Assembly (NCBI RefSeq): GCF_012911975.1
Contig: NZ_SMDQ01000007.1
Span: 62,001-126,000 of the forward strand
Length of the DNA: 64,000 bases
From: Nodosilinea sp. P-1105
Lineage (GTDB): Bacteria > Cyanobacteriota > Cyanobacteriia > Phormidesmidales > Phormidesmidaceae
Direction: 5' to 3'
The stretch's first letter is position 1. The number at the start of each line of letters is the position of its first letter. The notes under the pieces were generated by a model, which had not been told where the DNA came from, did no database searches, and worked only from the letters and a program-made list of their open reading frames with translations. A program made the position numbers and the translations under genes. Positions 24,846 through 55,100 of the stretch are shown here, in pieces.

Positions 24846-24935
24846 TAGCCAGTGGGTAATTACATAGCCTCTGCATAGCGTAAGCCATCTGCACCTATAG
24901 CTAGCCTGGTTAAATAATTTCTTCAGCCTACTTAA

Positions 24936-25072
24936 ACCAAATCCAAGTCCAGACCTGGCGTTCTGTCTGTGGGAAAGCCTAAGATCCCGATCTGGACTTG
25001 GCATGAACCAAATCCAAGGCCAGACCTGGCGCTCTGTCTGTGGGAAAGCTCCAGCTCGGGAGCTGGACTGGG
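24936..25072. repeat. Direct pair of a ~66-bp hairpin repeat (a third copy lies behind groEL)
   Basis: Copy A (24936-25001) and copy B (25006-25072) share AACCAAATCCAAG[GT]CCAGA and CTGTCTGTGGGAAAGC. Copy A ends are a perfect 11-bp inverted repeat (CCAAGTCCAGA 24943-24953 / TCTGGACTTGG 24991-25001). Copy B has an inner hairpin CCAGCTC/GAGCTGG (25051-25066). Confidence 0.9.
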
Positions 25073-25132
25073 TATAGCCCAAGTAGAATAAGGATACCGG
25101 CTAATGCTCGTTGTTCTCTTGAGACCCCAGCC

Positions 25133-26743: not shown

Positions 26744-28027
26744 ATGCCCCCAGCCGCTCTCTCTTCCCTGAACGATCGCGAGTACCGCAAGCTACTGCTG
26801 GCCCTTACCCTCGACACCCAGCGGCTGGAACTGCTGATCGCCATTACGGACGATCGCAACCTGCAAGACCAGCTGATCGCCGCCTACGAAGCGGACCTGA
26901 AGGCCGAGGACATTACCCCCCTGCGCGCCCGCCTGGACCCCAACCGCCCCAGCCTGCGGGCCACCCTGGAGGAGCTGGCGGCCCAGACCCCGGCGCTGCA
27001 AGCAGGGGAACCCGCCGTGGTGACGGTGCTGAATGCCGGGGAATTGCTGGGGGTGCGCCTGGATGATGAGAAATCGGAGCAGGAGAAGTTTTTCTTTTCC
27101 CTGCAATGGACCCGGGAGGCCCTGCGGAAGTTTACCTTCCCGATTGTGCTGTGGCTGCCGGATGCAGTGGCGACCCGCCTGGCCCAGCAGGCCCCAGATT
27201 TTTGGAGCTGGCGCGGCGGCGTGTTTGAATTTGTGGCGGAGGCCAGGGAGCCAGCGGTGGGGCGAGAATTGCTGGCAATGCCTATGCGTGGTCTGCAAGA
27301 TGAGCCACAGAAAAGCCCCATCGCCATCGCTGACTTGCAGCAGCAGGTGGCCCAGCTAGAGCAGACTGCGCCGGAATCGCCGCTGCTGATTACGCTCTAC
27401 AACAACTTGGGAGAAGCTTACTCGGGTCAGTACGATTACAAGCAGGCGCTGGAGCTCTACGAAAAAGCGCTGACTCTGGCCAAGACAAAGAACGACCGTG
27501 CTGGGGAAGCCAGGGCGTTACGAAATTTGGGAGATGGATTGGCAGATTGTGGGCGACCGTTTCAGGCGATGGGTTACTATCAGCAGGCTTTGGAGAAGTA
27601 TCGGGAACTGGGCGATCGCAGTGGCGAAGCAAAAACGCTAAATCGGCTTGGCCTTGCTAGTGATGATTTAGGGCAATACCCCCAGGCGATTGAGTACCAC
27701 CAGCAGAATTTAGCGATCGCGCGGGAGATTGGCGATCGCAGTGGCGAGGCCAATTCCCTAGGCAGTTTAGGCATTGCCTACGATTTGCTGGGGCAGTACC
27801 AACAGGGGATTGAGTACCATCAGCAGTGGTTAGCGATCGCGCGGGAGATTGGCGATCGCTTTGGTGAGGCGGCTTCTTTGTTTAACCTTGGCAATGCTCT
27901 GGTAAAACTGGGCCAAGCACAACAGGCCATTTCTAACTACGAAACTGCCAAGGCAATTTTCGAGGAAATCGGGCAACCGTTCAACGCTGATAAATGTGAC
28001 ACCGCTCTCCGCAGCCTAAACAATTAA
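26744..28027 (+). CDS. TPR protein with NTPase-associated N-terminal domain, partner of the upstream ATPase
   Basis: 427 residues from ATG 26744; the upstream extension is the hairpin repeat. Residues 1-190 form a domain ending in ...RLAQQAPDFWSWRGGVFEF, a phrase I associate with NTPase-linked TPR proteins of cyanobacteria. Residues about 205-420 hold five 40-residue TPRs (Y..AL.LYEKALTLA type) with nearly identical DNA in units 3-5 (GCGATCGCGCGGGAGATTGG repeats near 27713 and 27833), pointing to recent unit duplication. It likely acts with the ATPase at 25350-26633. Confidence 0.8.
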   Translation: MPPAALSSLNDREYRKLLLALTLDTQRLELLIAITDDRNLQDQLIAAYEADLKAEDITPLRARLDPNRPSLRATLEELAAQTPALQAGEPAVVTVLNAGELLGVRLDDEKSEQEKFFFSLQWTREALRKFTFPIVLWLPDAVATRLAQQAPDFWSWRGGVFEFVAEAREPAVGRELLAMPMRGLQDEPQKSPIAIADLQQQVAQLEQTAPESPLLITLYNNLGEAYSGQYDYKQALELYEKALTLAKTKNDRAGEARALRNLGDGLADCGRPFQAMGYYQQALEKYRELGDRSGEAKTLNRLGLASDDLGQYPQAIEYHQQNLAIAREIGDRSGEANSLGSLGIAYDLLGQYQQGIEYHQQWLAIAREIGDRFGEAASLFNLGNALVKLGQAQQAISNYETAKAIFEEIGQPFNADKCDTALRSLNN

Positions 28028-30514: not shown

Positions 30515-30586
30515 CTGGGGTGCTAGGATTCGAACCTAGGAATGCCGGGACCAAAACCCGGTGCCTTACCGCTTGGCGACACCCCA
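30515..30586 (-). tRNA. tRNA-Gln (TTG anticodon)
   Basis: 72 nt reading TGGGGTGTCGCCAAGCGGTA at the 5' end. The acceptor stem TGGGGTG/CACCCCA is perfect, the anticodon arm is CCGGG-TTTTGGT-CCCGG (anticodon TTG), the T arm is CCTAG-GTTCGAAT-CCTAG class, and the discriminator is G. CCA is not encoded. Confidence 0.97.
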
Positions 30587-46017: not shown

Positions 46018-46045
46018 AGAGTTTTTGAAAAACTCCGAGGTCTGG
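46018..46045. repeat. Degenerate copy of the CCCAGGG palindrome
   Basis: GAGTTTTTGAAAAACTC followed by CGAGGTCTGG resembles the right half of the palindromes at 49025-49057 and 52139-52171. It directly abuts the decayed antitoxin copy. Confidence 0.5.
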
Positions 46046-46395
46046 ACCCCGCTAGCCAATCACCAGATGGGGGCCGGAAGTCGGCAGATTCAGTGACCTG
46101 GGGTTGGGCTTGATGCTCAGTGTTAACAAGAAAATTGAGGAAGTCGGCGACAAGGCGGAGGCGATCGCCCGATATAGCGGTTCTTGGATAGGCGAGGTAC
46201 ATCTCAGTTTGGGAAGCCACTAAATTAATAGGCTTGAGTAAATGATCTGTACTTCATGTAAGTGAGAACAGCTATAGTTGATCCAGGTAATGATTGATCG
46301 TGTGTCGTAGCTGAGTATTGTTCATAGTTTTTTTACCTCATCTGACAAACCCGCAGTATCTAGTCAGCGCTGGATAGCATCTTCAAAAGAACTAA
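46046..46395 (-). pseudogene. Decayed copy of hicB-tail + antitoxin, interrupted by a MITE
   Basis: On the minus strand, DNA matching the intact antitoxin gene at 49777-50034 starts at its ATG region (about 46324) and runs to about 46046 (LRLVADFLNFLVNTEHQAQPQVTESADFRPPSG). A 100-bp element (46175-46274) splits it after the first 15 or so codons. Upstream, 46325-46395 matches the tail of the hicB-like gene (FEDAIQR-stop-LDTAGLSDEV) with an in-frame stop. The toxin part is absent. Confidence 0.8.
46175..46274. mobile_element. 100-bp MITE with TA target duplication
   Basis: Compared with the intact antitoxin copy, exactly 100 bp are inserted and flanked by TA on both sides (46173-46174 and 46275-46276). 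Ends read TAGCGGTTCT and AGAACAGCTA, an inverted repeat with one mismatch, and a second short match lies further in (GGTACATC / GATCTGTACT). TA duplication and this size suggest an IS630/Tc1-mariner-driven element. Confidence 0.8.
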
Positions 46396-48306: not shown

Positions 48307-48465
48307 AGGTTTGCCCCTTTGTTTGGCACCAAAGTCGAAACTTGTGTTGTTCCGTTTCCATCGCTGTAGACAACGTGTGACTTCACATTGCTGGGGCCTC
48401 CGTCGACCATCAGATCAGGTAAATTAAGCTTAAACATACCCAAGCACTTCCCATGGTGGGAGTCT

Positions 48466-48702
48466 ATGATGCAGAAACAGACCATAGGGTACACATCACC
48501 TCTAGACACTTTAGTTGCCGTGGCCAAACGGCTGAGCCTCTACGAAAAGGGTCAACAGCTCTCCTCAGAAGACTTTTTTGACCAGTATAGCTGGGGACAT
48601 CTGGGTGACGAAGCTCTGTATGTGGAGTGGGCTAACGACTACCGCCACTACCTCGCCCTACGGCAAGACCTCGAAGAACTGCTAGTGCAGCGTCAAGACT
48701 AA
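48466..48702 (+). CDS. Small conserved protein, copy 1
   Basis: 78 residues from ATG 48466 (MMQKQTIGYTSPLDTLVAVAKRLSLYE), GGGAG just upstream. It is soluble, helical and acidic (SSEDFFDQYSWGHLGDEALYVEWANDYRHYLAL). A paralogue at 51848-52081 is about 80% identical by eye. The ~100 nt before the ATG is also duplicated. The look is antitoxin-like but I cannot name a family. Codon use resembles the host genome. Confidence 0.7.
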   Translation: MMQKQTIGYTSPLDTLVAVAKRLSLYEKGQQLSSEDFFDQYSWGHLGDEALYVEWANDYRHYLALRQDLEELLVQRQD

Positions 48703-49114: not shown

Positions 49115-49330
49115 TTATGGCTGCGGCATCGCTTCGATAAATGCCCTAAGGGCTTTATTGACCGCTTCAGGGGTAGTAAATACCTGAGCCACATCGTCGT
49201 CTAAAACAACAACTTTAAGCTTTTCGACATCATGCCCGACGGCAAATCGATTAGGCTTCGCTTTTTGATAGTCAAAGCGGTATTCCGGCTGCAAGTCATC
49301 TTCAGAGGGTGGCATGGGGTTAGAGGGCAT
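49115..49330 (-). CDS. Small protein downstream of vapC
   Basis: 71 residues from ATG 49330, whose A is the last base of the vapC stop codon (TAATG). The sequence YRFDYQKAKPNRFAVGHDVEKLKVVVLDDDVAQVFTTPEAVNKALRAF is typical of a small cyanobacterial family that tends to accompany toxin genes. Coupling to vapC suggests an accessory antitoxin or a neighbouring module. The longer frame to 49438 lies inside vapC and is rejected. Confidence 0.75.
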   Translation of the reverse strand: MPSNPMPPSEDDLQPEYRFDYQKAKPNRFAVGHDVEKLKVVVLDDDVAQVFTTPEAVNKALRAFIEAMPQP

Positions 49331-49773
49331 TAGAGCCAGGATTCTAGAGGGAAGTTGCGGACTTGCTGCATACGAGGAAAATCTTGATCGCGGGAAACAA
49401 CCGTTAGTGAATAATGTAAAGCGGTGCAGGCGATCCATAAATCGTTATCGCTGATGCCAATTTCCTCAATTCTGGTTTTGCGGCGTTTTTGACGCTCTTT
49501 GGGGCCATAGTGGCGAATGAGTGCAGATTTGAATTGGCCATACAGTTCAGAGATTGACTCGTTAAGGGAATAAATGCCGATGTCAGCCAAGTATGCTCTA
49601 GCGCGGCGGAGATTTTCTTGCTGGCGCTCGGAGTGGTATGCCATGTAGTAAATTTCACCTGCTGTAATGATGCTCACGGCAACATTTTGCTCACCGACCT
49701 CAGCAATTTTGCGGCGCATGGTCAGGTCCCCCTGAATCAACCGACTGAAGTGATTGGTATCGAGTAGATACAT
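49330..49773 (-). CDS. vapC: VapC-type PIN-domain toxin
   Basis: 147 residues. PIN nuclease acidic residues are visible: D5 in MYLLDTNHFSRL, E41 in TAGEIYYMAY, and two Asp in ISDNDLWIACTAL (about 109-111) followed by D133 in VVSRDQDF. These coordinate metal for RNA cleavage. It starts 3 nt after the antitoxin gene at 49777-50034, giving a standard type II order. Confidence 0.93.
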   Translation of the reverse strand: MYLLDTNHFSRLIQGDLTMRRKIAEVGEQNVAVSIITAGEIYYMAYHSERQQENLRRARAYLADIGIYSLNESISELYGQFKSALIRHYGPKERQKRRKTRIEEIGISDNDLWIACTALHYSLTVVSRDQDFPRMQQVRNFPLESWL

Positions 49774-49776
49774 CGC

Positions 49777-50034
49777 TTAGGCCTGGATCTGGGAGCGGGT
49801 TTCGTAAACGGTTTCTAGGCAGTCTTCAAAGTCTGTGCCTTCCCAGGTTTCGGTATGACTGAGTAGGGAACCGCCAGATGGGGGCCGGAAATCGGCAGAT
49901 TCAGTGACCTGGGGTTGGGCTTTATGCTCGGTGTGAACTAGAAAATTGAGGAAGTCGGCTACGAGGCGGAGGCGATCGCCCGATAGCTGATCCAGATAAT
50001 GATTGATCGTGTGCCGCAGTTGAGCGTTGTTCAT
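49777..50034 (-). CDS. Antitoxin of the VapC module
   Basis: 85 residues. The N-terminal helix HTINHYLDQLSGDRLRLVADFLNFLVHTE resembles DUF2281-type dimerisation segments, and the C-terminal part (WEGTDFEDCLETVYETRSQ) is acidic and would bind VapC. Its ATG overlaps the stop codon of the hicB-like pseudogene (ATGA). A decayed duplicate lies at 46046-46324. Confidence 0.85.
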   Translation of the reverse strand: MNNAQLRHTINHYLDQLSGDRLRLVADFLNFLVHTEHKAQPQVTESADFRPPSGGSLLSHTETWEGTDFEDCLETVYETRSQIQA

Positions 50035-50211
50035 AGTGCTCTTTCCACCTCATGTGACAAACCAGTAATATCTAACCAACCCTGAATAGCATCTTCTAGC
50101 ATTTCGAGCAGGCGATCATAGCTTTCTCCCCAGGTGTGACAACCAAGGCAAAGCAGGCACAGATACACACCACACATCGTCTTCTTGCCAGATAATAGCT
50201 TTGTTGTTCAT
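50031..50211 (-). pseudogene. Frameshifted hicB-type antitoxin gene
   Basis: Reading from ATG 50211 gives MNNKAIIWQEDDVWCVSVPALP; the continuation GCHTWGESYDRLLEMLEDAI lies in another frame. One extra T in CCTTGG near 50145 explains the shift. The restored product has the HicB pattern and would end at 50031, overlapping the next start by ATGA. A matching tail exists at 46325-46395. A sequencing error is possible. Confidence 0.7.
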
Positions 50212-51630: not shown

Positions 51631-51775
51631 TCTAGCCAACGGTTCTGTGATCGCACCCTGCAAATGCCCCAGCTACTCGGTCAGGCTCTCCAGCTGCTTT
51701 TCGGGCTTCAGCACGCCCAGGCCGCGCACCACCACCTTGCCGCTGCTGTAGACAAAGCGCGACTTCACATTGCTG
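51631..51775 (-). pseudogene. Displaced remnant of the mfd 3' end
   Basis: About 145 nt match the last 48 codons of mfd (52186-52330): [20 protein letters not shown] continues to ESLTE, a stop where mfd has Trp, and then LGHLQGAITEPLA. It lies on the far side of the small gene at 51848, in the same orientation as mfd. Confidence 0.9.
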
Positions 51776-51806
51776 TGACCTCCGTTGACCATCAGATCAG
51801 GTAGAT

Positions 51807-51820
51807 TAGGCTTAAGCCTA
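51807..51820. promoter_or_regulatory. 14-bp palindrome before the small gene
   Basis: TAGGCTTAAGCCTA is perfect and sits 27 nt before ATG 51848. The paralogous position before 48466 is degenerate. It could be an autoregulatory operator. Confidence 0.4.
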
Positions 51821-51847
51821 CCCAGGCACTTCCCATGGTAGGAGTTC

Positions 51848-52081
51848 ATGATGCAGAAACAGACGATAGAGTACACCTCGCCCTTAGACGCCTTGGTTGC
51901 CGTGGCCAAACGGCTGAGCATCTACGAAAGTGGTCAACAGCTCTCCTCCGAGGACTTTTTCAACCAGTATAGCCAAGGGCAACTGAGTGACGAGGCTCTG
52001 TATGTAGAGTGGGCCAATGACTACCGCAACTACCTGGCCCTACGGCAAGACCTCGAAGAACGCTTGGCCGATGCGGCATAG
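51848..52081 (+). CDS. Small conserved protein, copy 2
   Basis: 77 residues from ATG 51848 (MMQKQTIEYTSPLDALVAVAKRLS). It is a close paralogue of 48466-48702, differing mainly at the C terminus (DLEERLADAA). It lies between the displaced mfd tail and the genuine mfd 3' end, as if inserted there. No domain is recognised; its acidic, helical character is antitoxin-like. Confidence 0.75.
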   Translation: MMQKQTIEYTSPLDALVAVAKRLSIYESGQQLSSEDFFNQYSQGQLSDEALYVEWANDYRNYLALRQDLEERLADAA

Positions 52082-52138: not shown

Positions 52139-52171
52139 AGACCCCAGGGTTTTTCAAAAACCCTGGGGTCT
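52139..52171. terminator. Perfect 33-bp palindrome between convergent genes
   Basis: AGACCCCAGGGTTTTT-C-AAAAACCCTGGGGTCT has a 16-bp perfect stem with T or A runs inside. It lies 15 nt after the mfd stop codon and 57 nt after the small gene, so it can end both transcripts. A relative lies at 49025. Confidence 0.8.
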
Positions 52172-52185
52172 GGGGAAAGCAAGAC

Positions 52186-55100
52186 CTAACTCGCCAGCGG
52201 CTCTGCGATCGCCCCTTGCAAATACCCCAGCCACTCCGTCAGGCTTTCTAGCTGCTTTTCGGGCTTCAGCACCCCCAGGCCGCGCACCACGACTTTGCCA
52301 CCGCTGTAGACAAAGCGGGACTTCAGGTGGCTGGGCAGTTTCTCGCTGATCAACTTCCAGGCGGGTTCTTCCATCGGGGTTTCCATCACCACATGTTGCT
52401 TGCCCTCGGGTTTGATCCGAGAGAAGCCTGCCGCCTTGGCCACCAGCTTCAGTTCCAGCATGCGCACCAGTTGCTCGGTGGCGTGGGGAATGGGGCCATA
52501 GCGATCGCTGAGATCCGCCGCAATCTGCATCAGCTCTACCTTGCTGCTGGCGCTGGCCAGGGAGCGGTAGGCGCTCATCTTTTGTTCCAGGTCGGGAATG
52601 TAGTCATTCGGTACAAAGGCGGTGACATTGAGATCCACCTGGGTGTCCTCCACCTTGGGAATATCTTGGCCGCGAATTTCGGCAATTTCCTCTTCTAGCA
52701 TGTCCATATAAAGGTCAAAACCGATGGCATCCATCTGGCCGGACTGCTCGACCCCCAGCAGGTTACCCACACCGCGAATCTCCATATCCCGCATGGCCAG
52801 TTGGTAGCCCGAGCCCAATTGGGTAAATTCTTGGATGGCTCGCAGGCGCTTGCGGGCTTTGTCGGTGAGGGATTTTTTGGGATAGAACAGCCAGGCATGG
52901 GCCTGAATACCGGCCCGGCCGACCCGGCCCCGCAGTTGGTAAAGCTGGGAGAGGCCAAAGCGGTGGGCGTCTTCCACCAGGATGGTATTGACCCGGGGAA
53001 TATCGAGACCCGACTCGATGATGGTGGTACAGACCAGAATGTCGGCCTCCCCGTTGCTGAAGGTGAGCATGGTGGATTCCAGTTCCCCTTCGTCCATCTG
53101 CCCGTGGGCGATCGCGATGGTAGCGGTGGGCACCATCTCGCGAATTTTGGCCGATACATCCTCAATGCCTTCGACCCGGGGCACCACATAAAACACCTGC
53201 CCGCCGCGATCGAGCTCCTGGCGGATGGCGGTACGCACCGCTTCCGGGTCCAGGGGCGACAGGTGGGTTTTGATCGGACGGCGGGAGGGGGGCGGCGTGG
53301 TAATCAGGCTCATTTCCCGCACACCGGATAGGGCCATGTACAGGGTGCGAGGGATGGGGGTAGCGCTGAGGGTGAGCACATCCACCTGGGTTTTGAGGGA
53401 TTTGATCCGCTCTTTTTGGTTCACCCCAAACCGCTGTTCTTCGTCCACCACTAGCAGACCCAGACTCTTGAAGTTGACCCCCTTCCCCAGTAGCTGATGG
53501 GTACCGACCACCACATCCAACTCGCCGGTCTTCAGCCGCTGCAGGATCTCTTTTTTTTCGGTTTGGCTGCGGAAGCGGTTGAGCAGCCCCACCTGGATCG
53601 GGTAGGGGGCAAAGCGCTCCTTCAGGGTGTGGTAGTGCTGCTGGGTGAGGATGGTGGTGGGGGCCAGCAGAGCCACCTGTTTACCGGCGGTGATCGCTTT
53701 AAAGATAGCCCGCAGGGCCACTTCGGTTTTACCAAAGCCCACATCGCCGCAAACCAGTCGGTCCATGGGGCGATCGCTTTCCATATCCCGCTTCACATCC
53801 TGCACCGCCTTCAGCTGGTCGGGGGTGGGCTGATAGGGGAAGGAGTCTTCCAGCTCCTGCTGCCAGGGCATATCGGTGGGGTAGGCAAACCCTTCCAGCT
53901 TGGCCCGCTGGGCGTAGAGCTTCAGCAAATCCACCGCCACCTTTTTGATCGCCTTTTTAGCGCGGCCTTTGGTTCTCTCCCAGGCGCTGCTGGTCATTTT
54001 GTTCAGCACCGGTGCCTGACCACTGGCGGCCCGATAGCGCGACAGGGAGCCCACCTGATCCGCCGCCACCCGCAGCAGGCCGTCGGCGTACTGAATCACC
54101 AGGTAGTCTCGGGTTTCGTGGTTGACCGTCAGGCTTTCCAGCTTGATGAATTTGCCGATACCGTGGCTGCGGTGGACCACAAAGTCCCCAGGCTTCATTT
54201 TGTTGGGGTCCACCTGCTTAGAGGTGGAACGGCGACGCTTGCGGACGTAGCCCCCCGTGGCCAGGGTATGTTGGCCAAAAAACTCCCGGTCCGTGACCAC
54301 CACCAGTCGAAAGGTGGGCAGCACAAACCCCTCCATCTCTGCCAACCCCGAATACTTGACCGCCACCGGCACATGCTGAGTGTGCAGCTTGTCGATGGCG
54401 TTGTAGTCTTTGGGGTTGGGGATAAACTGGGCCGGGCAGTCATGCTCTTGCAGCAACGCCACCGATCGCGAAGGCTGAGCTGAGACCAACCAGACCGCAT
54501 ACTTGCGATCGCATTCTTTGCGAATGGTCTCCGCCAGCTTGCCAAACTGATGGGGAATTGCCGGAACTGGACGACTGGCCAGATTCAGCCCGCCATGGTT
54601 CGCCTCGCTCAGCTCCGAGAGCAACAGTCGAGGGAAAACTTCGGCATCGGTCAGGGTATCGGTGAAAGGGCGGTGGATCTTGGGGAGTGGGTGGGTGGAT
54701 GAGTGGATGGGTGGATGGGTGGATGAGTCTGCATCCGTCCCCTCCTGGGAGGGGGAGGGGTGGGTTTCTGCCCCATCCTCCCCAACTTCTCCATCTCCCC
54801 TTCTGCCTTCTTGCCAGTGGTCCTCCACATGCTCGATCCAGCGATCGCTGTGGGCCTGACATTGATCCACCTCATCGATGGCGATCAGGCTGGTGTCTGG
54901 CAGGTAGTCCAACAGAGAGGCGGGGTTGGGAAACGCCAGACCCAGCCAGCGGCGCAGTCCTTCGGGCAAAATGCCGCTGTCCAGTCCTTCCTGGGCGGCG
55001 TCGGAGAGCAGGTCGTTTAGCTTCCCTTGCTGGCGCAGGTGATCGATAATCACCGGACCGTACTGGGTGGGGGTGAGCACCAGCTGGTCAATGGTGTCCA

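Follow-up and report, generated by a model that had tools for sequence, protein, structure and literature searches.

The window analysed here comprises 64,000 nucleotides of the genome of Nodosilinea sp. P-1105 (bases 62001 to 126000 of contig C163; the genome spans 6.01 Mb in 195 contigs) and contains two related copies of a small gene, both on the reverse strand. The uninterrupted copy (49777 to 50034, 85 amino acids), recognized as an open reading frame (ORF) and by alignment, precedes a gene for a PIN-domain, VapC-like toxin (49330 to 49773, reverse strand; PF01850, E value of 2.4e-11; NF047863, E value of 1.2e-13, under the cutoff of that model). The 85-amino-acid product had no match in profile searches of Pfam and NCBIfam, and the gene is VapB-like by position, since it precedes the PIN-domain gene. 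The second copy (46063 to 46325, reverse strand), delimited by translation and by its similarity to 49874 to 50096, is a partial duplicate whose similarity begins at 46063, and a repeat comparison of the window found no VapC-like duplicate beside it near 46 kb. An initial sequence-only reading had described an intact and an interrupted copy of one gene; the uninterrupted paralogue stands, while the interrupted copy is a truncated duplicate and not a working gene. Other repeats are also seen in this window. Short segmental duplications lie near the VapB-like duplicate, around the 3' end of an mfd-like gene (48363 to 48679 with 51745 to 52061, and 51632 to 51775 with 52190 to 52333; 86 to 87% identity), a 33-bp stretch at 52139 to 52171 is a 97% match to its own reverse complement, and adjacent repeats are found at 27563 to 27870 (shift of about 120 bp) and at 24935 to 25075 (shift of about 71 bp).

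Alignment of 46030 to 46345 with 49860 to 50065 leaves one gap only, of 102 bp, with an unbroken match on either side; identity to the paralogue is 93.8% over 112 bp on the left (46063 to 46174) and 80.7% over 114 bp on the right (46274 to 46384). The empty site in the paralogue reads CCCGA-TA-GCTGATCC (written continuously, CCCGATAGCTGATCC), and the filled site reads CCCGA-TA-[TAGCGGTTCT...AGAACAGCTA]-TA-GTTGATCC (right flank including the TA, TAGTTGATCC). The net insertion of 102 bp consists of a 100-bp element (46175 to 46274, forward strand) and one extra TA, the paralogue carrying a single TA where the element has one at each side (46173 to 46174 and 46275 to 46276). Other partitions of the 102 bp are possible in principle because the element itself begins with TA and the target is TA. 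Duplication of a TA target and ends starting with TAGC are the rule in the IS630 family, and it is on account of this rule, together with the agreement with other copies, that the borders were placed here.

The element is bounded by 10-bp terminal inverted repeats, TAGCGGTTCT on the left (46175 to 46184, forward strand) and TAGCTGTTCT on the right (46265 to 46274, reverse strand), each with an imperfect extension, TA included, that reaches 46201 on the left and goes back to 46248 on the right. The short repeats agree at 9 of 10 positions; for the longer ones, which start at the TA, the agreement is 20 of 29. Among 63,000 frames of 104 bp across the window, three reach 9/10 and one reaches 20/29, the element's own frame being counted in both cases. 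The coordinates given by the sequence-only reading were thus correct to the base, as was its TA duplication; its terminal repeats, described as exact, are present and extend to about 29 bp, with one mismatch within the first 10.

The paralogue had been proposed as the empty site, and this is borne out by congener genes in two sister genomes (L084 in G008 and L086 in G023) that are also without the insert, both with CA and not TA at the target. In a third congener (L083 in G022) similarity ends at the insertion site, and this gene is hence uninformative on the empty site. Translation of the interrupted copy gives 17 codons from the start, followed by TAG at 46274 to 46272; this first in-frame stop is brought by the end of the element, of which it forms the last three bases. 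The old reading frame picks up again past the insert, because 102 bp correspond to 34 codons. There is next to no likelihood that no insertion took place and that the paralogue instead lost 102 bp from an ancestral, element-bearing gene. The CA in the two sister genes leaves the ancestral base unsettled, which is compatible with such a loss, but the 102 bp introduce a stop into a frame that is otherwise open, the same two sister genes also lack them, and members of the same family, flanked by TA at either end, occupy unrelated sites. Given an insertion, the truncated gene copy at 46 kb was probably useless before it or independently of it, and any selected function of the element at this particular site would seem to be absent.

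Further copies, which the sequence-only reading expected elsewhere in the genome, are indeed present. Six loci carry the exact end pair TAGCNGTTYT-N60..90-ARAACNGCTA, all of them with TA on both sides; the reversed-pattern control gave no hit. A sequence model of the element family, built from 12 copies, adds loci on contigs C142, C184, and C162, for a total of nine full or nearly full copies. The copies on C24 and C125 are identical over 101 bp and lie at different sites, which would imply recent movement. Those on C11, C46, and C90 (L004 1501 to 1592, L006 1501 to 1590, and L007 1501 to 1592) form a second MITE subfamily of 90 to 92 bp, sharing the terminal repeats and differing in the interior. 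At locus L002, the stop codon of a 271-amino-acid ORF falls within the element's end. Taken with a length under about 500 bp, no room for a transposase gene, inverted repeats, and a TA duplication proven by the empty site, these copies at unrelated sites mark the 100 bp as a nonautonomous element of the MITE kind.

Beyond this genome, BLAST with the window copy recovered 12 full-length relatives (68 to 82% identity) in nine other genomes of the 143 searched, a set that includes the genome studied here, and matches of any kind at an E value of ≤0.01 came from 14 of the 143, again with our own included. At the same threshold the family model matches 22 of the 26 genomes of the genus, a count that includes partial matches to IS ends as well as antisense matches. 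TA was found on both sides in 22 of 26 full-length rows, or in 20 of 24 distinct copies once two duplicates were removed (the flanks of L142 equal those of the G006 copy, and those of L143 equal those of the G024 copy); in the other 4 of the 24, at least one side lacks a clean TA. This flank count leaves out, from 34 rows, the partial, shifted, or decayed L102, L106, L107, and L137 and four antisense rows. In addition, close relatives turned up in two records of a named genome collection scanned by pattern, "Leptolyngbyaceae cyanobacterium SM2_5_2" and "Filamentous cyanobacterium CCT1," which assigns the group to the filamentous cyanobacteria. In distant genomes, some of the end-pair matches look like chance, as the reversed control also matched in 6 of the 143 genomes. 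A plasmid search with the element gave one partial match, on plasmid pn1 of Nostoc sp. UHCC 0926, with a different IS630 about 80 bp away from the right end. On this plasmid (L003 2936 to 3037) we observe a fragment of about 37 bp with the same right end, flanked on one side by an IS630-type transposase and on the other by a TnpB-like ORF. A literature search returned no paper whose title or opening lines of the abstract name this repeat.

A complete IS with corresponding ends was recovered from the congener G008 (L046 473 to 1526; 1,054 bp between TAs). It encodes two ORFs in overlapping frames, one helix-turn-helix (HTH), matching PF13565, and one DDE; the DDE part is an IS630 transposase by its matches to NF033545 (101.4 bits; cutoff, 100) and PF13358 (E value of 1.4e-30; 106.5 bits). 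A frameshift between two transposase ORFs is common practice in the IS630 family, and together with the overlap this suggests that the two ORFs are joined in the same manner. A plasmid search with this transposase found IS630 relatives, about 50% identical to it, in other cyanobacteria. The left end of the window element matches end A of the G008 IS at 25 of 29 positions and end B at 21 of 29; for its right end the figures are 23 of 29 with end B and 17 of 29 with end A. Across the aligned copies, the right end is closer to G008 end B than to end A in 12 of 12 and closer to the end B of our own genome in 11 of 12. In several other copies the left end does not tell the two apart, and in some (e.g., G013, G082, and G000_C24) G008 end B scores higher. 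On these alignments the polarity of the match is firm for the right end only, and such a polar match fits the loss of an IS interior.

The G008 DDE protein matched 78 of the 143 genomes, with no match in our own genome at an E value of ≤1e-10, which hinted that the partner is missing from it. This possibility was rejected by a search with single ends, which hit 21 places in the genome (reversed control, two, one per strand) and uncovered IS ends on five contigs. Contigs C123, C137, and C181 all break off at one and the same base, 141 bp into the IS left end, and carry the transposase start MKAYSLDFRKKIVEV (L132, L136, and L140); contigs C135 and C195 break off 76 bp into the right end and carry the transposase C terminus DIRSWFTFRCYCTS (L135 and L141). 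The protein search misses this partner because the IS ends sit at contig edges. In a short-read assembly, an IS present in multiple copies leaves near-identical repeats broken at the same base. Since the five contigs show this pattern, three at the left end and two at the right, a resident IS630 of the G008-type subgroup, its interior unassembled, is very likely present in this genome. The window element agrees with these resident ends at 23 of 29 positions on the left and 21 of 29 on the right, the same-genome relationship that defines type I. A match to IS630 ends in the same genome, which the sequence-only reading had anticipated, is therefore found, as fragments at five contig edges only. 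The assembled DDE_3 transposases on C1, C141, and C34 were considered as partners and rejected, being of other kinds and with no searched end motif nearby.

Anabaena sp. 90 offers a contrasting case. Its MITEs are described as 77 to 541 bp long with inverted repeats, 15 of 147 lying inside broken genes, and, because the genome showed no matching IS ends, are classed as type II (PMC3542288). By comparison with that description, the element studied here does have matching IS ends, at contig edges. That it nevertheless belongs to type II, or is a self-standing repeat with no relation to an IS of the genome, the proposal made for those MITEs, is very improbable: a transposase of the right subgroup is not assembled here, as such a reading would have it, but IS630 ends with matching repeats stand at five of the genome's own contig edges, and a complete IS exists in G008.

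The element also folds as DNA into a hairpin (−13.1 kcal/mol; z score of −2.69 against shuffles), and any inverted repeat would do so. In the consensus hairpin of 12 copies, 93.4% of cells are paired, the paired cells and covariation score lie above 500 of 500 shuffles, and 13 cells are changed on both sides, a number matched by 1 of 500 shuffles. Five pairs show two-sided change, which 158 of 500 shuffles reach, and further pair types are reached by 403 of 500. These statistics hint weakly at selection and are compatible with descent. They do raise the question of whether the element is a selected RNA or regulatory hairpin (a terminator, small RNA, or processing site) that was spread by transposition and kept for its folded transcript. 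The fold energy, the extent of pairing, and the excess of two-sided cells speak for this, as does an interior that can be aligned among copies of 68 to 82% identity. However, the outer helix is just the inverted repeat needed by the transposase, the numbers of two-sided pairs and of further pair types are unexceptional, and the two-sided changes may be common by descent. Furthermore, the element has no match in Rfam, and the window copy lies in a dead gene with no evident role. An identity with a known Rfam RNA was rejected, as the whole window yields a single Rfam match, a tRNA at 30515 to 30586. We consider an RNA function of this kind unlikely. Equally doubtful, in our estimate, is the broader proposition that selection on transcripts holds the MITE interior paired throughout the genus, in which case the copies would be portable RNA elements beyond being passengers of IS630.

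We conclude with high confidence that the 100 bp are a type I, IS630-dependent MITE inserted into a TA of a truncated vapB-like duplicate, most likely after movement in trans. The MITE reading made at the outset is thereby supported and can be narrowed to a type I element, dependent on IS630, inside a decayed duplicate gene. What the sequence itself supplies for this conclusion is the borders, the TA duplication, the copy family, the polar end match to IS630, and the presence of IS630 ends elsewhere in the genome. The element would be a noncoding derivative of a two-ORF IS630/Tc1-mariner IS that has kept little beyond its two ends, and its likely origin is an internal deletion of such an IS. 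Transposase from a full-length IS630 copy would bind the imperfect inverted repeats of about 29 bp, excise the element, and join it to a TA, presumably by cut and paste, and repair would then duplicate the TA. Mobilization in trans by this transposase is proposed by analogy with ISY100. In the present case the target was the truncated duplicate of the vapB-like gene, its frame ended by the terminal TAG of the element.

ISY100, an IS630 element, is reported to transpose in vitro with its transposase alone, which cleaves at the element's termini and uses TA almost exclusively as the target, with duplication of the TA (PMC2170065). Its imperfect repeats are bound by the HTH domain (PMC2170065). 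As described there, ISY100/ISTcSa of Synechocystis PCC 6803 resembles the IS found here in being a cyanobacterial IS630/Tc1-mariner element that duplicates TA; it is autonomous with one transposase gene (PMC2170065), whereas the IS here carries HTH and DDE parts in two overlapping frames. The closest parallel to the MITE among the systems in the papers cited here is the pair formed by RUP and IS630-Spn1 (PMC3049150). RUP of Streptococcus pneumoniae is described as a noncoding element of about 107 bp with inverted repeats like those of IS630-Spn1 in the same host, and it generates a target site duplication (TSD) upon insertion, has knocked out genes, and is proposed to move in trans (PMC3049150). 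RUP and the window element, likened by description, have in common that they are short and noncoding, with IS630-like ends, a TSD, and a proposal of movement in trans. They differ in host and in number, with 110 copies of RUP given for one pneumococcal genome versus the 9 found here (PMC3049150). Another cyanobacterial MITE, Nezha, has been tied to ISNpu3-like elements by its terminal repeats (Zhou 2008, quoted in PMC3049150; referenced in PMC10969869), and it shares with the window element, by description and not by sequence, a link to an IS through terminal repeats.

The element is an unnamed addition to a well-known class, the IS630-dependent MITEs, and the understanding of how these work stays unchanged. 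It presents a clean case of such a MITE, in which the empty site, the copy family, and the partner IS are all identified. The finding is useful for the annotation of this cyanobacterial group, where 100-bp repeats and IS ends at contig edges are easily overlooked.
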